From Thiomonas sp. FB-Cd (lineage in GTDB: Bacteria; Pseudomonadota; Gammaproteobacteria; Burkholderiales; Burkholderiaceae_C): 64,000 bases of DNA. The stretch is taken from positions 992,001 to 1,056,000 of the forward strand of contig NZ_JPOE01000005.1 in NCBI RefSeq assembly GCF_000733775.1. Direction: 5' to 3'. The notes below the pieces were generated by a model. It did not search any database, was not told the origin of the DNA, and saw only the letters and a list, made by a program, of their open reading frames with translations. Shown here in pieces: positions 4,624 to 20,078 of the stretch (positions within the stretch are counted from its first letter, which is position 1; the number at the start of each line of letters is the position of its first letter). The translations under genes and the position numbers were made by a program.

Positions 4624-6018
4624 TCAAATGCGATGACCGCTGACAATGGCGCCATCGGTGCGGCGCAAGCGTGCAAAACCAGGCAGGGCGAGCAGCGGCA
4701 GGCCAGCCAGAGTGAAGAACACCGCGTGGAACGTGGACAAGGCAGGAGCTAACCGGTTCGGCGCGAACAGCCCAAGCAGCGCGGCGCCGAAGGAGACACC
4801 GAAGCTCACCGTCAGCTGCTGCAAAAGCCCGCCCAGGCTCGTGGCACGGCTGAGGCGCCAGGGCTCCACGTCGGCGTAGGCCAGTGTGTTCGAGGTCATG
4901 AACTGGGTCGACCGCACCAGGCCGAACAACACGATGACAGCGGCAATCCGGAGGTGCGACGTCTGCGGCCCAATCAAGGCAAAGCTGGCGAGCATGGCGG
5001 AGCAGGCCAGCGCGCTGCCGATCAGCAGGCTCCTGAACCCGAGGTGGCGCAGCGCGGGGCCGACGACGACCCGGATCAGCGGCGCGCCGAATGCGGATAG
5101 AAAGGTGAGCGAACCCGACGCCACCGGACTCATGCCCAAGCCCAGCTGCAGCAAAAGCGGCAAGAGATAGACGGGAGCATTCATGGCGACCCGGCACAAT
5201 CCGCCGGCCATCGTCGCAATGGCGAACGCCCGCTCGCGCAACAGACCCAGGTCAACGGCGGGGTGCTCTTGCGCGCGGCCCCGCCATGCAAAGCCCAGGA
5301 CCAGCCCTACGGCAATTGCGGCAAGCGTCGTCAATGCGACCCAGGGCAAGTGTCCGACCCCTTCCATGCTGAGCTGCAGCAGTCCGACACCCACGCCAAA
5401 GAGTGTGAAACCTGCCAGGTCGAATGGCGGCACGTCCTTGGCTGGCAAGGGTGTGACGAAGCGGTAGGCCAACAGCATGCCGATCAGCCCGAAGGGCAGG
5501 TTGATGTAAAAAATCCAACGCCACGAGAGATAGGTCGTCAAGTACCCGCCGAGCAGAGGGCCAATGACCGGGCCGACGATGGCAGGCAAAGTCGTATACG
5601 TCATGGCCCTGACGAGCTGGGTGCGCGGAAAGCTGCGCAGCAGGATGAGGCGGCCGACCGGGGTCATCATGGCCCCGCCGAGCCCTTGCAAGACGCGTGT
5701 GGCCACGAGCATGGCAAGGCTGTCGGCCATGCCGCATAAGGCCGAACCGAAGGTGAACACTGCAAGCGCTGCCGTGAACACCCGACGCGTGCCGAAGCGG
5801 TCGGCGCACCATCCGCTGAGCGGAATGAACACGGCGAGGGTGAGGATGTAGGCGCTCACCGCAAGGCTCATGTGCACGGCGGTCGTGTGTAACGCACGCG
5901 CCATGTCGGGAATCGCGGTGGTCACGATGGTGACGTCGAGCTGCTCCATCAGGAACGCGATTGCCACGATGAGCGGAATCAGCATCCGCGGCGCTTGCAG
6001 CGGGTCGTCGTCGGCCAT
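4624..6018 (-). CDS. MFS multidrug transporter, DHA2/EmrB type
   Basis: A 464-residue transporter with the family hallmarks. The N-terminal FLMEQLDVTIVTTAIPDMARAL is represented by MEQLDVTIVTTAIP (motif D1 region). DRFGTRR is motif A, RVLQGLGGAMMTP is motif B, and GPVIGPLLGGYL is motif C of proton-driven drug antiporters. Its stop is 245 bases before the start of the next MFS gene, and its start is 15 bases after the isochorismatase-like gene, so these three probably share a transcript. Motif C argues for export rather than uptake. Confidence 0.88.
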   Translation of the reverse strand: MADDDPLQAPRMLIPLIVAIAFLMEQLDVTIVTTAIPDMARALHTTAVHMSLAVSAYILTLAVFIPLSGWCADRFGTRRVFTAALAVFTFGSALCGMADSLAMLVATRVLQGLGGAMMTPVGRLILLRSFPRTQLVRAMTYTTLPAIVGPVIGPLLGGYLTTYLSWRWIFYINLPFGLIGMLLAYRFVTPLPAKDVPPFDLAGFTLFGVGVGLLQLSMEGVGHLPWVALTTLAAIAVGLVLGFAWRGRAQEHPAVDLGLLRERAFAIATMAGGLCRVAMNAPVYLLPLLLQLGLGMSPVASGSLTFLSAFGAPLIRVVVGPALRHLGFRSLLIGSALACSAMLASFALIGPQTSHLRIAAVIVLFGLVRSTQFMTSNTLAYADVEPWRLSRATSLGGLLQQLTVSFGVSFGAALLGLFAPNRLAPALSTFHAVFFTLAGLPLLALPGFARLRRTDGAIVSGHRI

Positions 6019-6033
6019 GTCGTGCCGCGTGGC

Positions 6034-6597
6034 TCAGCCGCGGGGTGAATCAAGGAGCGTGATGATCTCCTGCGTCGAGCCGACCTCTCCAAGCCGGGGG
6101 AAGATCGCTTCGAGGCTGTTGGCGTGCGCACGCGGGTTCATGTCGGTCATCGCGTCCGCGGCCAAAGTGACATGGAAACCGAGTTCGTACGCCTGGCGGG
6201 CTGTCGATTCGACGCCGATACTGGTGGCCACCCCTGCAATCACCACCTGCGTGACGCCGAGTGCTTTCAGCAGCTGATCAAGACCGGTGTGCGAGAAGGC
6301 GCCCCATGTCCGCTTGGTCACCATGAGATCCTCCAGGTGGCGGTCCAATTCAGGCAGGAGATCCGTCCAATCCGACGGAAGCCCGTCGAGGCGACGACCC
6401 TGCTCGGTTCGCCCGGGCGCGCCACCGGCGACATTGACCAGGACCACCGGAAGGCTGTGCCGCCGGAACGCGGCGGCCAGTGCACCGGCGCGCTGGGCGA
6501 CCTCTGAAACCGGGATCTGGGTGGGAAGCGTCGCGATGCCTTTTTGCAGGTCGATCACGATCAATGCAGTCGTTGGGTCAAGGGCGGAGACGGCCAT
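6034..6597 (-). CDS. Isochorismatase-family hydrolase with Gly at the usual Cys position
   Basis: A 187-residue alpha/beta hydrolase of the isochorismatase-like superfamily. The catalytic Asp16 (VIDLQ) and Lys95 (VTKRTWGAF) are present. The nucleophile segment reads GVATSIGVESTAR, with Gly128 where nicotinamidase-like members have Cys. True isochorismatases of the EntB/PhzD type also have glycine there, because they hydrolyse a vinyl ether without a thiol. The substrate may therefore be a chorismate-like enol-pyruvyl ether rather than an amide, but this is inference. It is the first gene of the minus-strand unit with two exporters. No clear ribosome site precedes the ATG. Confidence 0.82.
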   Translation of the reverse strand: MAVSALDPTTALIVIDLQKGIATLPTQIPVSEVAQRAGALAAAFRRHSLPVVLVNVAGGAPGRTEQGRRLDGLPSDWTDLLPELDRHLEDLMVTKRTWGAFSHTGLDQLLKALGVTQVVIAGVATSIGVESTARQAYELGFHVTLAADAMTDMNPRAHANSLEAIFPRLGEVGSTQEIITLLDSPRG

Positions 6598-6961: not shown

Positions 6962-7064
6962 CCCGGAGTCGTTGTGGTGGCATGCTGGAGCAGCGCCACG
7001 CTCGGGTCGCCGAAGTGGGAAGGCCCCACCTTAACGCCGTGCATTGAGCAGCACGAGAGTTCGC

Positions 7065-8123
7065 TCACCGTGTGGCCGGTGGCTGCGGTGCGATCCGGGC
7101 AGCATCGGCCCTTTGCGTCGGGCGAGCCCGCTCGCGCCGCCATTGCCCGGGCGGCAGGCCAGTCATCTTTTTGAATGCCCGCACAAATGCGGCCTCCGAT
7201 TCATACCCGACTTCGAGGGCAACGGATACGACACTGGCATCGGTGTGCACGAGCAGGCCGGCAGCAAGCTGCATGCGCCAGCTCGTCAGATATTGCATTG
7301 GTGGTTGCCCGATCAACAGGACAAAGCGGTCATAGAGCGCGGAGCGCGAGATGCCAACGCGATCGGCCAGCACGTCGACAGTCCAACGGCTGGCGGGACG
7401 CTCGTGGAGCAAGGTGAGTGCCCGACCGACGAATCGATCGCGCAAGCCAGCGAGCCAGCCGGTCTGACCGCTTGGCAGCCCGTCGAGATAGCTGCGCACG
7501 AGCTCGACAAACATCATCTCGCTGAGCCGTTCGAGCACTGCCTCACCACCCGGTCGCCTTTGGGCCGATTCCAGGACCGCGGTCCGGATAAATTGCGCGA
7601 CCAGACTCTGATCCTCATCGCCTTGGTAACGGACGTGCAGGAGCCGAGGAAGATTCGCCAGGAGCGGGTTGAACGGCTGGGCGTCGCACCCGAAGAACCC
7701 GCAAATCAGCGTTGTGTCGTCAGGCCCGGCGTCACCGTAAGCGTCAGAGGCCGTGACATCGTTTCCCCGCACGCGGAGAAAGAAAGGCGCCCGCTCGGAT
7801 GGGGACAGGAAGAAGGGGTTGACAGCGTAGTCAGCACGCATCCCCGGGGCGCTGGAGAGCGCATGAGCGTCACCCCGCGCGTAGACCAACACATCCCCGC
7901 GCTGCGCCCGCACCGGTGGCTCGCCGACGACCGCCCCCCAGCACGATCCCGAGGTCACGACGTGGTAGGCCATCACGTGCCCCGCGCCTGGCATGACTGC
8001 GGCAGCGATCGCCGCCGCCGGAAGTGCCTCCACGACCCATGGAGCCCTTCCAATGACATGGAACAGCAACGTCCCTTGCAAGTGGATGCGCCGAAGTACG
8101 TCCGATAAGGTATCCACACCCAT
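7065..8123 (-). CDS. AraC-family regulator with cupin N-terminal domain
   Basis: A 352-residue regulator. The first about 200 residues (DVLRRIHLQGTLLFHVIGRAPWVVEALP onward; typical GTLLFHVIGRAPW) form the Cupin_6-type sensor of many AraC proteins. Residues about 245-340 hold two helix-turn-helix units: WTVDVLADRVGISRSALYDRF, seen as VDVLADRVGISRSALYDRF, and VVSVALEVGYESEAAFVRAF. The start at 8123 was chosen because GGAGGG lies nine bases upstream, whereas the open frame to 8213 adds residues foreign to the family. It is divergent from the methyltransferase at 8386, its most likely target. Confidence 0.88.
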   Translation of the reverse strand: MGVDTLSDVLRRIHLQGTLLFHVIGRAPWVVEALPAAAIAAAVMPGAGHVMAYHVVTSGSCWGAVVGEPPVRAQRGDVLVYARGDAHALSSAPGMRADYAVNPFFLSPSERAPFFLRVRGNDVTASDAYGDAGPDDTTLICGFFGCDAQPFNPLLANLPRLLHVRYQGDEDQSLVAQFIRTAVLESAQRRPGGEAVLERLSEMMFVELVRSYLDGLPSGQTGWLAGLRDRFVGRALTLLHERPASRWTVDVLADRVGISRSALYDRFVLLIGQPPMQYLTSWRMQLAAGLLVHTDASVVSVALEVGYESEAAFVRAFKKMTGLPPGQWRRERARPTQRADAARIAPQPPATR

Positions 8124-8385
8124 GGCTGCAGCCCTCCGCGTCAACGTGCCATGACGCTTGCACGGGATGCAGTATCTCGCCAGATCAACGTCGCGTCGAG
8201 TGCGCGCTGTCATCCGGACGCGCGAGCAATCGGGATGGACGATTGATCAGGTAACGCTGTCGCCGGCGACTTACGGTTGGGACGTGCAGATTGGGATCGA
8301 ACGCTTGATGTGGCCATACGGTCGCTGAGCGGCTGCGTTCAGGAGCCGATGTGCACGTTCCAGTTCAACCGGTGAGGAGAATGAC

Positions 8386-9246
8386 ATGAGTCAAACGACA
8401 CTGCTTGCGCAAATCGGCAGGCGCGACGCGAAGCCGCCATTGCGGCCGGATCTGGAGGCCATGAAAACCCGCCAGAGAGCGGTATGGGCCAGCGGAGACT
8501 ACGCGATGATTGGCGTCACTCTCCAAATCGTCGGTGAACAGTTGTGTGAGGCCATCGACCTTCGCGCTGCTGAGTGCGTCCTTGACGTGGCAGCCGGCAA
8601 CGGCAACGCGTCGCTCGCGGCCGCAAGGCGATTCGCCCGCGTGACGGCAACGGACTATGTGGAGAGCCTGCTTGAAAGCGGTCGCAGGCGGGCCCTTGCG
8701 GAAGGTCTCCCGATGGAGTGTCGCGTGGCCGACGCGGAAGCACTGCCCTTTGATGACGCATGCTTTGATGTCGTCTTGTCGACCTTCGGGGTCATGTTCA
8801 CGCCGAACCAGGAGCAGGCTGCCCGGGAGATGTTGCGGGTCACCCGTCCAGGCGGCCGAATCGGACTCGCGAACTGGACTCCCGACGGGTTCGTTGGCGC
8901 GATCTTCAAGACGATTGGCCGCCACGTACCCCCTCCGGTCGGCCAGCAGTCACCAGCTCTCTGGGGCACGGAGCCGCGCATCGTCGAACTGTTCGGCCCC
9001 GCAGCCGCGGATATCCGCGTCACCCGCAGGCAGTTCATGTTCCGATACGCATCTCCGGATCACTGGATCGCCCAGTTCGAGACCTATTACGGACCCATGC
9101 TCAAGGCCTTTGAGGCGCTGAACGCGCCGGGCCGAGCGGCACTGCGGGCAGACATTGCTGAGTTGCTTGCGCGATCCAACCGTGGAGGCGCCGACTCGCT
9201 GGTGATTCCCGGGGATTATCTGGAGGTCGTGATCGAAAAGCACTGA
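8386..9246 (+). CDS. SAM-dependent class I methyltransferase
   Basis: A 286-residue protein with a Methyltransf_11/25 core: motif I VLDVAAGNGNASLAAA (about residues 65-80), the acidic end of strand beta-2 (TATDYVESLL), ADAEALPFDDACFDVV and the post-motif LRVTRPGGRIGLANW. It belongs to the UbiE/arsenite-methyltransferase-like sprawl. No conserved cysteines of ArsM are seen, so a small-molecule substrate is the best statement. GAGGAG stands six bases before the ATG. It is divergent from an AraC regulator. Confidence 0.85.
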   Translation: MSQTTLLAQIGRRDAKPPLRPDLEAMKTRQRAVWASGDYAMIGVTLQIVGEQLCEAIDLRAAECVLDVAAGNGNASLAAARRFARVTATDYVESLLESGRRRALAEGLPMECRVADAEALPFDDACFDVVLSTFGVMFTPNQEQAAREMLRVTRPGGRIGLANWTPDGFVGAIFKTIGRHVPPPVGQQSPALWGTEPRIVELFGPAAADIRVTRRQFMFRYASPDHWIAQFETYYGPMLKAFEALNAPGRAALRADIAELLARSNRGGADSLVIPGDYLEVVIEKH

Positions 9247-9849: not shown

Positions 9850-11073
9850 CTACGCATGAGTGACCTCGTGCGCAGTCGCTTCGGTGGGTTCCTGCTTCAT
9901 CGAGGGGCCCGAATGCACCACCTCTCCACAGGCTGCAACGCGGTGTCCCCGCGCCAGAATATTCATCGCGCCGACCACATCGGCGTGATGCGCGTAGCCA
10001 CACGCCACGCACTTGAACTGCGACTGCATGCGGCGATTCTCAGCCGCCACATGGCCGCAGTCCGGGCAGGTCTGACTGGTGTGGTGCGGCGGCACCGCCA
10101 CGAGCCATCCGCCGCTCCACTGGAGCTTGTAGTCCAGTTGCCTGCGAAACTCGGCCCAGCCCTGGTCCAGGATCGACCGATTCAGGCCGCTCTTGGCCCG
10201 AACGTTCCTGCCCGGTCGCTCGGCCGTGCCCGCAGCGCTGCGCGACATGTTCTTCACCTGCAAGTCCTCGATACACACCATCGCGTGGTTTTGGCTGATG
10301 GATGTCGTGGCCTTGTGCAGGGCGTCGCGCCGGGCATTGCCAATTCTCTGGTGGAGTTTTGTGACTTTGGCCTTCGCCTTCCTCCAGTTCTTGCTGAACT
10401 TCACCTTGCGGCTCATCGCCCGCTGGTACCGCGCAAGCCGCACCGCGTGCGTCCTGAAACTGTTGAGTGGTGCCAGGAACGTGCCATCGCTGAACGTGGC
10501 AAATCGGGCAATGCCCACGTCGATCCCGATGGCGCGGGTGGCGCTCGGGATGGGCTGCTCGACCTCACGCTCGGTCTGGATCGAGATGAACCACGTGCCG
10601 CCGCTGCTGGACACCGTGACGTTGCGCACCGCGCCGAGCACATCGCGGCTGTTGCGGTAGCGCAGCCACCCCAGCTTGGGCAAGAAGATGCGGCTGTTGG
10701 CCGCATCGAGCTTGATCTGTTTCGGATCCGGGTAGCGCAAGCTCGCGCCCTGGCCTTTCCTCTTGAAGTGCGGGAAATCGGCGCGTTTGGCGAAGACGTT
10801 GGTGTAGGCGCGGTCCAGATCCTTGAGTGCGTGTTGCAACGGGTGGATCGGCGCATCCTTGAGCCACGGCGTCTCTGCGCCGTTGCGCCAGGCCGTCAGA
10901 TGCCTGGCCATGTCGACGTAGCGGATGAATCGTCCGCCCGCCTCGTGGTTCGTCTTCTGCAACGCCAGCGCCTTGTTGAACACGAACCGGCACGAACCCG
11001 CGAAGCGTCGCATCTGGCGCTGCTGCTGGCCGTTTGGCCGAAGCTCGAACTTGAACGCCTGGAGTCGCTTCAT
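9850..11073 (-). CDS. tnpB: TnpB, RNA-guided nuclease of an IS200/IS605-family (IS1341-type) element
   Basis: A 407-residue TnpB. The N-terminal OrfB helix-turn-helix region (MKRLQAFKFELRPNGQQQ) is followed by the RuvC fold with an intact catalytic set: Asp185 (AIGIDVGIA), Glu269 (VCIEDL) and Asp364 (HHADVVGAMN). The zinc ribbon is complete (Cys336, Cys339, Cys355, Cys358). The start at 11073 matches the family; the frame upstream to 11139 is outside the element. No tnpA lies nearby, so mobility would depend on a TnpA in trans. Because the catalytic residues and the right-end hairpin are intact, it may still be an active guided nuclease. Confidence 0.93.
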   Translation of the reverse strand: MKRLQAFKFELRPNGQQQRQMRRFAGSCRFVFNKALALQKTNHEAGGRFIRYVDMARHLTAWRNGAETPWLKDAPIHPLQHALKDLDRAYTNVFAKRADFPHFKRKGQGASLRYPDPKQIKLDAANSRIFLPKLGWLRYRNSRDVLGAVRNVTVSSSGGTWFISIQTEREVEQPIPSATRAIGIDVGIARFATFSDGTFLAPLNSFRTHAVRLARYQRAMSRKVKFSKNWRKAKAKVTKLHQRIGNARRDALHKATTSISQNHAMVCIEDLQVKNMSRSAAGTAERPGRNVRAKSGLNRSILDQGWAEFRRQLDYKLQWSGGWLVAVPPHHTSQTCPDCGHVAAENRRMQSQFKCVACGYAHHADVVGAMNILARGHRVAACGEVVHSGPSMKQEPTEATAHEVTHA

Positions 11074-11122: not shown

Positions 11123-11800
11123 ATGCCTGTGGCATCCACGCTGTCCTTCCTCCCCGAGTTGGTGACCAGCTACGATCCATCGGAATACGATGGCCGTTAT
11201 CTTCTGCTCGATGAATTCACCAGCAAGATCAACGCCGAATTCCGCTGTGTGGGCCGCGACCCGATTAAAAACGTGTCCGATCTTATCGGCATGCCGATTA
11301 TGGTCATGGACCCCGAACAGGAAACCATGGACTGGATCGTCTACCAGGATGGCGTCGTGATTCAGGACGCCAGCGGAGCCGAGGGTGGTCATGGCCGCAT
11401 GCACATTATCCAGCATGTCGCCGAGCGCATGGAACGCGAGACAGGCATCACCATCAAAAGGGGCTCGCGGGTCGATATGAATATGGCCCTGCTCCAGAAG
11501 AAGCCGATTTACGTGGCCGGCACGCGCATCGATACCGTCGATTACGTCAAGGACGCCAAGGACGCCAAGGCGGCCGCCGATGATTCCGTCGACCTCGTGT
11601 TAACCCGGGTCGGCAATATGCTCGATCGCGTCCAGATGATCGTCGTCGCCGGAGGCCACCCGGAGTATGATGTCGAGTATCTCCGAGGCAAATTGCCGAA
11701 TGTCCCGGTGATCGATTCAGGACTCGGCATTTTCGGGAATGTCACGGGCTTCCTCCTCTCCGGAGAGGAAACCATGCGCCGGGCGCAGGAAGGGGCTTGA
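11123..11800 (+). pseudogene. ParM/StbA-like actin-family partition ATPase, 5'-truncated
   Basis: The readable part (about 225 residues) matches the second half of ParM-type actins. MVMDPEQETMDWIVYQDGV aligns with the phosphate-2 segment and its following strands, a central helix GGHGRMHIIQHVAERMER follows, and VQMIVVAGGHPEY corresponds to the adenosine-motif glycine turn. It ends in GLGIFGNVTGFLL. The first roughly 100 residues with phosphate-1 are missing, and the tnpB element lies exactly there. The phosphate-2 loop is degenerate (DPEQET instead of DLGGTT). The next gene starts one base after this stop, as in parMR operons. ParM-like identity is by motif order, not by search. Confidence 0.6.
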
Positions 11801-11801
11801 G

Positions 11802-12218
11802 GTGAGCAAACGCGATAAAGTCAGGTATATCAAGATCCAGACGGCGCTCTATGTCAGCGAATTATCCAGACCCGAACTTTACCGTTACCTGGAACGCTTC
11901 AAAATTGCCGGTAACCAGGACTCACTACCCCCGAAGCTATTATCGAAGATGCTTATCGAAAGGGTCCTCGATCTGGCTGAAACCGGGCTGAGCATGGGGG
12001 AGCCTGAGGGGTCTCCGGAGCCCATGCCAACCCCCGGGGAAGCGCCCTTGATCGAGCCAGGCCAGCAGCCCGCGGCAGCCAATCCCGCTCAGCACCAACA
12101 TGGTGCGCAGGAGGCTCCAGAAGCCGCGGAGGGGCCCGATGCCGGACTCGGACAGGACGGCGGCATCATCACACTCAGCCAAAGTGGTGGAAGTGGGCTC
12201 AGCCGATTCATGCGCTGA
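11802..12218 (+). CDS. ParR/StbB-like DNA-binding adaptor
   Basis: A 138-residue protein starting with GTG directly after the ParM-like stop; the same frame has no better upstream start with a ribosome site. The N-terminal about 65 residues (KRDKVRYIKIQTALYVSELS, then RPELYRYLERF and PPKLLSKMLIERVLDLAE) form a basic strand followed by helices, as in ribbon-helix-helix ParR proteins. The remainder is low-complexity, rich in Pro, Ala, Gln and Glu, ending in GGSGLSRFMR. A short C-terminal tail that contacts the ParM filament is normal for ParR. The palindrome array begins 32 bases downstream and is its likely binding site. Confidence 0.6.
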   Translation: MSKRDKVRYIKIQTALYVSELSRPELYRYLERFKIAGNQDSLPPKLLSKMLIERVLDLAETGLSMGEPEGSPEPMPTPGEAPLIEPGQQPAAANPAQHQHGAQEAPEAAEGPDAGLGQDGGIITLSQSGGSGLSRFMR

Positions 12219-12249
12219 TGCGTGTGGATGCGCGGTCGCCCTTTATGGC

Positions 12250-12569
12250 GTCCTTGGTTAGTCTAACCAAGGACGCGCCAATCGCTTTTTCATGTTGTTG
12301 GGAAGCAACTTGCGGCGCTCCAGGCGACCTCTATGCTATTTTTATCACACCTTTTTGTTGTCCTTGGTTAGACTAACCAAGTACACTTGAACCGACTATA
12401 GAGGCGCTCTTGATGTCCTTGGTTAATTTAACCAAGGACGCTTTGGCCAGCTCAAAAATGAGGCCAGACACGTGCCAGACAGCTCGGGAAGGGGCAAATC
12501 AGGCTGGTTGTCCTTGGTTAATCTAACCAAGGACTGCTCAAAGCGTCGCTGGTTAGATTAACCAAGGAC
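12250..12569. repeat. Array of five 25-bp palindromes, candidate partition centromere
   Basis: Five copies of GTCCTTGGTTA-NNN-TAACCAAGGAC lie at 12250-12274, 12360-12384, 12415-12439, 12510-12534 and 12545-12569. The first and third are perfect palindromes with 12-base arms. The second, fourth and fifth have one, one and two arm mismatches. Centre spacings are 110, 55, 95 and 35 bases. The surrounding DNA is AT-richer than the window. The array sits between the ParR-like gene and the recombinase-like gene, so it could be a parC-type centromere, an operator, a recombination site or several of these. Confidence 0.9.
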
Positions 12570-12619
12570 ATTGTGTTGTCTCCCACCTTTTACCAGGGAA
12601 CCGATGGAGGGTCGAAATC

Positions 12620-13927
12620 ATGAAAAAGAATAGCACCGAGGAAACTGCGGTTTTGACGGGCAACGTCGCGGAAACGGACGAAATCGCGCTCAAGCCAGCC
12701 CAGCAAAGAATCGACCCGCAACCCCAGCCGAGCGCCCAGGAATCCGACCTGATCGACACCCAGGACTCGAGCCCTGATGGGACCGCCACCCGAAAACTCT
12801 CCCGGTACCGAAGAAGCGTGAAGCTGCTCCAGGAGAATTGGGAAAACCATAATACGATCCGCTCCACGACGCGGGCCACGAATATCGAGGCCTTCAATAC
12901 AATCCGGCGACGTGCCATTAAAGACATCGGGCGAGGCGACCCCGAGGTCGAAACAACCATCACAATGCCGCAAATCATCGACCATTTTCTATCAAGAGTC
13001 ATGGCTGGTGATTATTCACGAGCGGGCTATACCCGCTATCGAACCTCCATTCTCTCCGAGATGAGCATTCAGCTCAAAGCACTTGGCGATGCGAGCGAGA
13101 TGAGTGAATACGTCGACGCCATTGATAAGCTTTCTCAGCGAGTCAACAGCCCGAAAGCGCTGTTTACAGCAAATCAACTCCTGGGCGACTCGAACGCAAA
13201 GCGCAAAAGCTCAGAAAAGAAAATTGGGCGGGCGGATCTCAAAACGATTCTGCGTGAACTCGAGGAGCGCGGAGAAAAAGGAAACGGGACTTTGCTCTGG
13301 GTCCAGGCCACAATGGCCACAGGATTAAGACCTGTTGAGTGGAACCAGTCCGAACTGGACGGGGAAGGCAAGCTTCATACGCGACGCGCAAAAACGCACC
13401 GGCATATCGCCGCATTCGAGCGCATGGCTATGGCGAAGCGAATCGTCGGGCACGACGTCAAGAATGTCTACGAGGCCGACGACATTATCATTAAGGCGAT
13501 GGGCGAAATGCCGATCGCACACATCATCGAGCACAGAACACTGGAACTCGAAGGCGATGAGTTGGACATCGTGAAGCGGCACCTGGCGAATGTCGAGCGC
13601 GAAGACGCCAAGGGCGAGGACGGTTTCGATAAATACCAGCAGGCATGCACCAAATATCTGCACCGCGTCTGCAAGTCCATCTGGAAGGACGAGAAGCTGT
13701 ACTCACTCTACTCATTCCGCCACCAGTTTGCCGCCAACGCCAAGCGCGTCATGTCCCTCGATGAGGTGAAGCTCTCACTTGGGAGCAACTCCGCGAAGAA
13801 GTACGCGCGGCGATCGCAATCCTGGAGGGGCCTGGAAGGTGCCGGGAACTACCACCGGCATCTCGATACGCAAGCGCAACAGGACGCGGTTGAGACGGGG
13901 GCCGAGCCGACGCCGAAGCCGGAATAG
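12620..13927 (+). CDS. Tyrosine-recombinase-like protein
   Basis: A 435-residue protein. Residues 1-60 are disordered. Residues about 100-190 resemble a SAM-like core-binding domain (MPQIIDHFLSRVMAGDYSRA). Residues about 200-420 resemble the tyrosine-recombinase catalytic domain: ATGLRPVEW with arginine I, YSFRHQFAANAKR for the HxxR box (first His replaced by Tyr), and LGSNSAKKYARR with the candidate nucleophilic Tyr. A GGAGGG lies nine bases before the ATG. The gene follows the palindrome array by 50 bases. It could resolve dimers or integrate a plasmid or ICE. The degenerate HxxR box makes activity uncertain. Confidence 0.6.
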   Translation: MKKNSTEETAVLTGNVAETDEIALKPAQQRIDPQPQPSAQESDLIDTQDSSPDGTATRKLSRYRRSVKLLQENWENHNTIRSTTRATNIEAFNTIRRRAIKDIGRGDPEVETTITMPQIIDHFLSRVMAGDYSRAGYTRYRTSILSEMSIQLKALGDASEMSEYVDAIDKLSQRVNSPKALFTANQLLGDSNAKRKSSEKKIGRADLKTILRELEERGEKGNGTLLWVQATMATGLRPVEWNQSELDGEGKLHTRRAKTHRHIAAFERMAMAKRIVGHDVKNVYEADDIIIKAMGEMPIAHIIEHRTLELEGDELDIVKRHLANVEREDAKGEDGFDKYQQACTKYLHRVCKSIWKDEKLYSLYSFRHQFAANAKRVMSLDEVKLSLGSNSAKKYARRSQSWRGLEGAGNYHRHLDTQAQQDAVETGAEPTPKPE

Positions 13928-14223: not shown

Positions 14224-14538
14224 TCAGTGATAGTCCCCTTCGCGCTGATGGCGCACCGCCAGTACCGCGACTTTCGACGGACTGGCGATCTCGTACAGCG
14301 CGACGTAACCGGTACTTCCGAACGGGATGATCAGTTCCCGCCGAGCGGGACTCTGGGCTGCCTTGCGAAAGCTGTAGGGCGTAAGCGCAAGTTGCTGCTG
14401 CATTACCGCCCTGATAGGGTCGATCGTCGCTTGTGCGCGGTCAAGATCTTCGGTGGTCTCCGCCCGGTCGAGCAGACAATCAACGAGACGTTCCAGGTCC
14501 GATTCGGCCGTCGGCGTCAGCTGAACGTCAAAGCTCAT
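14224..14538 (-). CDS. RelE/ParE-family toxin
   Basis: A 104-residue protein with the ParE plan: an N-terminal strand (FDVQLTPTAESDLERLVDCL), two helices, and a C-terminal sheet SFRKAAQSPARRELIIPFGS followed by YVALYEI and KVAVLAVRHQRE. The last pattern (VAVLAVRHQRE) is the usual C-terminus of ParE toxins, which act on gyrase; RelE-type mRNA cleavage is the alternative. It overlaps its antitoxin gene by four bases, antitoxin first. Confidence 0.85.
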   Translation of the reverse strand: MSFDVQLTPTAESDLERLVDCLLDRAETTEDLDRAQATIDPIRAVMQQQLALTPYSFRKAAQSPARRELIIPFGSTGYVALYEIASPSKVAVLAVRHQREGDYH

Positions 14539-14807
14539 CGACCGAGCTTTTTCCGCTTCGCATCGAGCTTGGCTTGCAGCCGGTCGAGGACCGCCTCGAC
14601 CGGCGCCGCGACGCCAGAGCGGTGGTACTCCTCCGACGCAGCCTGCGCCCGCTCATGGAAGGCGGTTTGAACACGCCTGAACGCGATTGCACTTCGCACT
14701 GTCGCTTCAACGAAGTCGGTCAGGGTCTCACCTTTTTTGAGCACAGACTCAAGCTCGGCTCGGAGCTCGGGCTCGACTCGGATCTGGGGGATGACGGCAG
14801 ACTTCAT
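14535..14807 (-). CDS. Antitoxin of the ParE-type pair, ribbon-helix-helix
   Basis: A 90-residue protein starting MKSAVIPQIRVEPELRAELE, a strand followed by a helix as in CopG/ParD-like antitoxins, then a helix with TLTDFVEATVRSAIAFRR and a charged C-terminal helix that would wrap the toxin. It overlaps the toxin start by four bases. It probably represses its own promoter just above 14807. The pair follows a recombinase and partition-like genes, as addiction modules on plasmids and ICEs often do. Confidence 0.82.
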   Translation of the reverse strand: MKSAVIPQIRVEPELRAELESVLKKGETLTDFVEATVRSAIAFRRVQTAFHERAQAASEEYHRSGVAAPVEAVLDRLQAKLDAKRKKLGR

Positions 14808-14961: not shown

Positions 14962-15207
14962 CTATGCATAGGGCTCAACTATGCACAGTTCGGAATCCCG
15001 TCGATTCGCTCCACGAGCGACCGTCGGCGCGACAAAGCGATCACTGCTTTGCATAGTTCACTCTCGTCGGCGGCGAGCCAAATAGTCAGCCCATACCGCT
15101 GCTCGCCGCGGGGTGCGCGCCCGAGATCCAAAACTATGCGTAGCTCTCGCGTGGAGACTGCGAGGTGCTCAGGGATCGAACTACGCATAGTTGAAAACTA
15201 CGCATAG
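14962..15207. repeat. Cluster of six AACTAYGCRTAGTT-like sites
   Basis: Six related short sites occur within 246 bases: CTATGCATAG (14962-14971), AACTATGCACAGTT (14977-14990), CTTTGCATAGTT (15047-15058), AACTATGCGTAG (15132-15143), AACTACGCATAGTT (15179-15192) and AACTACGCATAG (15196-15207). They are near-palindromic, and no credible gene lies on either strand there (the frames at 14866-15207 lack motifs). The cluster lies upstream of the antitoxin gene. It could be iterons of a replication origin or an operator field. Confidence 0.75.
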
Positions 15208-15517: not shown

Positions 15518-15927
15518 TTTTTAAACTTTGTTCCCGAAAAGGCCGCGCGCCGCCGGGCGGGCTTTGACACTTTGTTACGCCGAACCTTGCAGGACCCGCA
15601 TAACAAAGTGTCAAAACGGCTTCAGAGGGGGTGTGGGTGCCGGGATCCGGCCGAAGGCCTGGCAGAGTGTGGAAATTCGGCCCCCGGACGCTGGTCCGGG
15701 TCGCGGACGCCACGGAACATAGTGTCGAAGGGCCTTGCCGTCACTCGGTTTTCTTGGGCTCGGCAGCAGGTGGCGCGGGACGCGTTCCGGATCGGTCATT
15801 CAGGCCTCGATGACGACGGACATGGCGCGTTCCGGGCTCCTTTCCACGGCCGCCCGCCCGCCGGATCGCCCGGATTGCAGCTTCGTTCAACGCCAAGCCG
15901 CTTCCTCGGGCGAAACATAGTGTCAAA
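15518..15927. repeat. Five copies of a TTTGACACTTTGTT-like repeat, both orientations
   Basis: Copies are at 15518-15534 (weak, TTTTTAAACTTTGTTCC), 15563-15576 forward, then inverted at 15602-15615 (AACAAAGTGTCAAA), 15716-15729 and 15914-15927. The pair at 15563 and 15602 can form a stem with a 25-base loop. Three more copies lie at 19991-20078. The whole stretch from 15208 to 16075 has no recognisable gene. Confidence 0.75.
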
Positions 15928-16075
15928 ACCAAAGGCAGGTGCGCGGATTTTCGGCTTTCGGCGAGCGTCGATGGCCGCACGGCGATCGTGGCGGACCCTG
16001 CCGCGACAGGGGCGCGCGTCGGCGCAAAGGAGGCGAGGCGCAGCCCACTGAGGGGGATGCACTACAGTCCCCGCC

Positions 16076-19990: not shown

Positions 19991-20078
19991 TTCGACACTC
20001 TGTTCTCCACCGGGAGGCGGAGCGACCGGCGTCGTTTGACACTTTGTTCTGCTTTTTCACACTTTGTTCTGCCGAACC
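19991..20078 (+). repeat. Three more copies of the TTTGACACTTTGTT-like repeat
   Basis: Copies at 19991-20006 (TTCGACACTCTGTTCT), 20035-20050 and 20053-20078 lie in one orientation directly upstream of the MBL hydrolase start. The last shares the downstream extension GCCGAACC with the copy at 15563. The rest of 19710-20090 shows no gene. Confidence 0.75.

Follow-up and report, generated by a model that had tools for sequence, protein, structure and literature searches.

A module on contig C5 of Thiomonas sp. FB-Cd was analysed within a stretch of 64,000 nucleotides (hereafter the window; contig NZ_JPOE01000005.1, positions 992001-1056000, of a 4.39-Mb genome in six contigs). From left to right, it comprises a minus-strand TnpB gene, a parM-like gene of which the C-terminal part remains, a small partner gene, five dyad (palindromic) sites and int, which potentially encodes a tyrosine recombinase (Table 1). 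With moderate confidence, this module is interpreted as the remnant of a plasmid-maintenance locus, in which a ParM/ParR (ParMR) partition system was accompanied by a tyrosine recombinase (Int) that would act on its own array of sites, probably for multimer resolution. The interpretation relies on the predicted fold of Int, its conserved catalytic residues, the joint change of the array and of the core-binding half of Int in two independent pairs of relatives, the presence of two palindrome types only at int genes in this genome, and the ParM neighbourhood of int relatives on plasmids. An initial annotation had proposed a combined partition and resolution or integration module of a plasmid or of an integrative and conjugative element (ICE). 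What stands of this proposal is a plasmid-derived maintenance module; an ICE is very unlikely, and the module is broken here.

The 435-residue product of int was predicted to adopt a tyrosine-recombinase fold with a core-binding and a catalytic domain, in agreement with the initial annotation. Arg I, Lys, Arg II and the nucleophilic Tyr are all present (R237, K258, R367 and Y395). Together with Y364, at the position of the box II His, they are invariant in two alignments of 14 and 15 rows, which exclude P0021 and the truncated P0007, P0011 and P0019 and in which identity goes down to about 20%. The ratio of nonsynonymous to synonymous change per site (pN/pS) in four pairs was 0.13-0.33 in the catalytic domain versus 0.38-0.51 in the core-binding domain, synonymous sites being near saturation in several of these pairs. 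Sequence searches with Int against solved structures gave no significant match, and a scan of viral contigs with the Int alignment returned three pattern matches, none of which was a relative.

The chief rival is a purely DNA-binding Int, whose recombinase fold would occupy the array without cutting it, so as to repress the int promoter or assemble a nucleoprotein complex that aids partition. Such a role is conceivable though rather unlikely. Five or six similarly spaced sites exceed the needs of simple self-repression, both active-site arginines, the Lys and the Tyr are kept at the distances given above, and constraint is stronger in the catalytic than in the core-binding domain. A known example is MrpR, the master repressor of prophage SPbeta, which has a tyrosine-recombinase fold and binds a repeated element; its sites are spread over the prophage, whereas those described here are clustered before int. 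As described in PMC10516654, MrpR keeps the Lys and Tyr but has neither Arg I nor the box II His. Int and its relatives keep Arg I, Lys, Arg II and the Tyr; the one place apparently lost is that of His/Trp III, and this in the window clade.

The initial annotation had described five 25-bp palindromes ahead of int. Five are indeed present, but only three are perfect, the others bearing one and two arm mismatches. All conform to GTCCTTGGTTA-N3-TAACCAAGGAC and together occupy C5:1004250-1004569. The 64-kb window, after single-base shuffling (20 replicates), contained no such dyad at up to four mismatches. Across the whole genome, with up to three mismatches allowed, all five sites (5/5) lie within this array, and the reversed-pattern control gave none. 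The array stretch has a G+C content of 49.9%, that of the three adjoining genes being 56-59% and that of the other stretches measured 63-66%.

A second module, with a broken int, is located at C5:812-815 kb (locus L023). As compared to the window, its DNA is 95.6% identical in parM (11198-11800) and 94.8% in parR, versus 49.0% in the array; within int, identity is 62.8% over codons 1-195, 75.2% over codons 196-230 and 93.3% over codons 231-435. The best two breakpoints were the parR stop codon (12218) and int codon 234 (13318), the latter directly ahead of the catalytic Arg 237, and they delimit segments with identities of 0.953, 0.591 and 0.938. This division raised the log-likelihood by 266.7, a gain that never exceeded 6.3 in 20 shuffles, for which a coarser grid was used. 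The L023 array consists of six dyads, about TGTCCCTTGTC-N5-GACAAGGGACA, with one to three mismatches each. Another species of the genus (genome G021, locus L021) carries six weaker sites of the L023 type, spaced by 120, 34, 33, 84 and 35 bases versus 121, 34, 33, 84 and 35 in L023. The core-binding part of its Int is also nearer to that of L023 than to that of the window: the G021-type protein P0005 shares 97 of 135 residues with P0019 (229 residues from the N-terminal part of the L023 Int) and 71 of 136 with the window protein. Among relatives encoded on metagenome contigs, core-binding domain identity to the window protein is 90% in P0002 (122/136), 68% in P0003 and 63% in P0004.

With up to three mismatches allowed, the Thiomonas genome has seven L023-type dyads, of which six make up the L023 array and the seventh lies at the start of a third int copy (L024:9292-10641, contig C2:1987-1988 kb), which is diverged and has one internal stop. 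This last palindrome overlaps the mechanical start of the int frame and lies ahead of the in-frame ATG codons that follow. Next to this int copy, BLAST with the known parM and parR, the ParM profile and Pfam on six neighbouring frames detected no relative of either gene, the Pfam run being made because the profile search had missed the divergent gene for an actin-like protein (ALP) at locus L057. The six frames correspond to a glycosyltransferase, a transposase, an epimerase, a hydroxymethyltransferase and two products with no Pfam match, none of them actin-like. In scans of this genome with both dyad types, a palindrome was thus found once without detected parMR and never without int. Locus L057 itself, on contig C2, is another int-parM pairing within the same genome, with a compact arrangement of int, TTCTTAA repeats, the ALP-like gene and a small gene, all three frames being open.

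The three genes and a palindrome array also occur together on two Variovorax plasmids, WDL1 plasmid 3 and RA8 plasmid 3, in the order parM, partner, five dyads and int. The co-occurrence on which the initial annotation depended is therefore real, and these relatives share the arrangement of the array but not its sequence. The ParM proteins of the two plasmids share 94.4% identity, and a 627-aa protein and three transfer proteins share 89-92%. Identical residues in Int number 73/146 in blocks 1-5 (core-binding), 23/30 in block 6, 242/270 in blocks 7-15 (catalytic, 90%) and 16/27 in the tail, and the palindrome arrays are unlike one another. Both plasmids bear a second array upstream of parM, made of about seven imperfect repeats or dyads whose sequence differs between the plasmids. 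Judging from its position, where type II centromeres usually lie, this upstream array is a candidate centromere for the partner. The ParB proteins of the two plasmids (loci L013 and L019) are only 38% identical beside transfer proteins at about 90%, as if several DNA-reading parts had changed.

Since the sites and the core-binding half of Int change together in these relatives, the comparison suggests that Int, and not the segregation proteins, reads the palindromes. The initial annotation had regarded them as a possible centromere of the ParR-like adaptor, which we now consider quite improbable. The palindromes do adjoin parR, the centromeres of low-copy plasmids are arrays, and the partners of the two Variovorax plasmids diverge too (57% identity). 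Within the Thiomonas genome, in contrast, parR stays at about 95% identity (its frame being shifted in the second half in L023) while the palindromes are of another sequence, and it was for this that the centromere was rejected as the principal explanation. One site moreover adjoins an int without detected parMR, and both Variovorax plasmids have their separate array upstream of parM.

By the strict count of dyads (13-base arms, 11 or more paired), the window has four, L023, L021 and L013 two each and L019 five; four further regions have none or one, among them the decayed module of genome G006 (L022), which has none and whose int frame is open. The L023, L021 and L013 arrays hence depend largely on repeated imperfect dyads. 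At up to four mismatches, each dyad consensus is confined to the record of its own module, except for the L023 type (six sites in L023, five in L021). Upstream of int, the plasmids of Serratia, Yersinia and Glaciecola have short tandem repeats of 17-20 bp, not long palindromes.

The parM-like frame of the window is real and ends with a TGA stop at 11798-11800, but it represents only the C-terminal part of the gene and not the whole gene. Its homology begins about 120 bp after the end of the TnpB gene. In a search of the genome with a small ParM profile, it covered positions 162-366 of 366, and the L023 copy positions 51-366. The frame matches PF21522 with an E value of 5e-6, just below the cut-off of the family, and the phrog_691 partition protein with an E value of 1.5e-7; the profile itself matches the ParM structures 3js6 (E 1.3e-7) and 1mwk (E 0.0025). 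This frame does not encode a complete actin-like ATPase, the N-terminal domain, which is present in Variovorax and in the C2 locus of the same genome, being missing. For this reason, partition by the window module is unlikely today. Unlike the broken parM, int is an open frame in the window and its array is present.

The partner gene starts with GTG at 11802, one base after the parM stop as initially annotated, and a small gene also comes after parM in Variovorax and in the C2 locus. Its product had been described as a strand-helix-helix, ribbon-helix-helix adaptor. No Pfam match above cut-off was obtained, and modelling, which gave a recombinase fold for Int, produced for the partner an AlphaFold2 model with a mean pLDDT of 49 and no beta strand; as this model is poor, the ribbon-helix-helix fold of the partner stays putative. 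An Eleftheria plasmid also has ParM followed by a small gene, but no int relative within the stretch retrieved.

The Cupriavidus relative of int has matches in 101 records of a plasmid collection. We examined 20 int-bearing records, hand-picked, with 60 of the 101 matches listed and two records (Variovorax) entered through ParM. ParM/StbA is close to int in 11 of the 20, from alpha-, beta- and gammaproteobacterial hosts. Nine of these 11 have ParM among dot/icm-type genes, in an operon that diverges from int and has an order near ParM-icmT-dotB-dotC-dotD (not every gene being annotated in each), while the other two have the Variovorax order. PMC12421886 reports that ParM and ParR of R1 boost transfer via contact with transfer proteins, and a similar effect could, by analogy, explain the ParM genes within transfer operons. 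A search of the Thiomonas genome for the DotC transfer protein, made without positive control, gave no match, and a stranded remnant is therefore the best description of the window locus.

Int could also be the integrase of an ICE or prophage, the palindromes being attachment or arm sites. This would fit the recombinase fold and the occurrence of the int profile in 5 of the 28 genomes of the genus, including this one (two of the five only through short pieces); at the level of the class, the count is 5 of 369 genomes at E 1e-10, again including this one. We consider this very unlikely and rejected it, as the window-type site has no second place in the genome that could act as attachment partner. 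Plasmid relatives of int adjoin transfer genes and ParM, and the lack of a DotC match, in the search without positive control, also speaks against it.

A hairpin telomere resolvase-like enzyme working on the palindromes is the least probable reading, and hardly credible. TelA and ResT act on palindromic sites and, according to PMC3558466, have a Tyr (Tyr363 in TelA) at the box II His position, as has Int with Y364; the capabilities of telomere resolvases are treated in PMC12270096. The fold of Int matched these enzymes less well than lambda Int, and the array is not at the ends of a linear replicon but internal to C5, a contig of 1557314 bases. Both the location of the sites and the fold ranking led to its rejection.

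Several observations weigh against a recombinase that resolves multimers beside a ParMR system. The window clade seems to lack the usual His/Trp ahead of the nucleophile (LGSNSAKKY); this region reads GH in plasmid relatives and LGSNSA with a shorter loop in the window clade, the alignment position being uncertain. The window Int may accordingly be weakly active or inactive, whereas that of Variovorax has retained a full active site. With parM truncated and the upstream region gone, the module has no working partition system. The central bases vary among the sites of one array (Table 1), so strand exchange between different sites would be hindered; since site 1 has the reverse complement of the site 2 centre, and site 4 that of the site 5 centre, inversion within these pairs is formally possible. 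A resolution site needs fewer than five or six dyads. Repeats before int are not general either: in a 9-mer test, 10 of 31 regions beat all 40 shuffles (8/22 in one set and 2/9 in the other, the L016 hit looking weak) and 21 did not, the regions being of our own choice and unequal in length, with L057 counted twice, and such tests bearing on repeated words only and not on binding. In L021 the array is degenerate, with 3-5 mismatches in each of the six sites, and at a loose setting (8 mismatches) its record gave three hits elsewhere where 3.0 were expected from shuffles. The Variovorax pair is less clean, as the change there extends beyond Int and the array to the partner, ParB and the DNA downstream of int. 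Finally, no ParM annotation was found near int in 9 of the 20 plasmid records, one without annotation and eight annotated (three Cupriavidus, which have stbB and ParAB-type genes, Salipiger, Photobacterium, Rhodovastum, Marivivens and Serratia), and the records were hand-picked.

Under the favoured reading of a multimer-resolving Int, each palindrome would be bound by a dimer, whose two core-binding/catalytic clamps would each grip one arm of about 11 bp, a length that fits a tyrosine-recombinase core site. On an intact plasmid, the complex of Int and array would resolve multimers, or otherwise join and separate sister copies, near the ParMR centromere, and the resolved monomers would then be moved by the actin filament. 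As the centre differs between the sites of one array, a site would exchange most readily with its own counterpart on a sister plasmid, which amounts to multimer resolution. The site some 50 bp ahead of int would probably also let Int repress its own promoter. As for the partition adaptor, its most likely target is the other array, upstream of parM, which would have been lost here beside the TnpB gene. A bolder proposal, which we find improbable, is that Int and its dyads form an integral third part of actin-driven partition. The recombinase on its five- or six-site array would couple sister separation to ParM-driven movement, and the array with the core-binding half would be a swappable incompatibility cassette, diversifying so that related plasmids coexist.

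Table 1. Coordinates of the module and of related loci (window positions unless a locus is named).
Feature	Position	Strand	Basis or remark
TnpB (IS200/IS605-type) gene	9850-11073	-	NCBIfam NF040570, E 7e-105; Pfam OrfB_IS605
ParM/ALP-like gene, C-terminal part, without N-terminal domain	11192-11800	+	PF21522, phrog_691
Small partner gene, ParR-like adaptor candidate, Pro/Ala-rich tail, 138 residues	11802-12218	+	Position straight after parM
Palindrome 1, perfect arms (0 mismatches), centre GTC	12250-12274
Palindrome 2, 1 arm mismatch, centre GAC	12360-12384
Palindrome 3, perfect arms (0 mismatches), centre ATT	12415-12439
Palindrome 4, perfect arms (0 mismatches), centre ATC	12510-12534
Palindrome 5, closest to int, 2 arm mismatches, centre GAT	12545-12569		Counterpart site at start of third int copy
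Putative exchangeable cassette, palindrome array and N-terminal half of int	12219-13318	+	Fitted breakpoints 12218 and 13318
int, tyrosine-recombinase-fold gene, 435 aa	12620-13927	+	Model
int core-binding domain, residues about 60-195	12797-13204	+	Helical domain ahead of linker in model; faster-evolving part
int catalytic domain core, residues about 235-400	13322-13819	+	Model; conserved part
Variovorax arrays upstream of parM	L013:5986-6416; L019 about 6009-6401
Short tandem repeats upstream of int	L066:5847-5900 (Serratia); L040:4741-4808 (Yersinia); L067:5771-5830 (Glaciecola)
L057 int	6976-7938
L057 ALP-like gene, divergent, apparently whole	7988-8902		PF17989, E 4.5e-12
L057 small gene	8912-9208

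Beyond int, the window bears on its minus strand a ParE-like toxin gene and an overlapping small gene upstream of it (14224-14807), probably a toxin-antitoxin pair. A small cluster of CTAYGCATAG words in both orientations lies at 14962-15207, this word being absent from the rest of the window. Four AACAWAGTGTC words, also in both orientations and including a 25-base inverted repeat, are found at 15563-15929, with one further word at 20038.

P1 combines parABS with Cre-loxP and F carries ResD-rfsF, in both cases with ParA-type partition and one main site. The locus described here resembles them in having a segregation operon and a tyrosine recombinase, proposed to resolve multimers, on one replicon; it differs from them in the ParM-type operon, in the five or six dyads directly before int and in an Int with no significant sequence match among solved structures. 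As in the type II ParMRC systems of R1 and pSK41, a ParM/ALP-like ATPase is followed by a small partner, with an upstream array in Variovorax. The locus departs from these systems in its additional Int and palindromes, in the truncation of ParM in the window and in a partner that is a putative adaptor. A full-text literature search, covering only a minority of subscription papers, gave no description of this int family beside ParM genes or of its site arrays.

If the interpretation is true, plasmids with Dot/Icm-like transfer in alpha-, beta- and gammaproteobacteria would carry a little-noticed recombinase beside ParM and transfer genes, accompanied in some of them by dedicated site arrays. 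The natural swaps described here would then offer ready-made specificity pairs, with which the assignment of arrays to their reading proteins, and a decisive role of the array in plasmid compatibility, may be tested.

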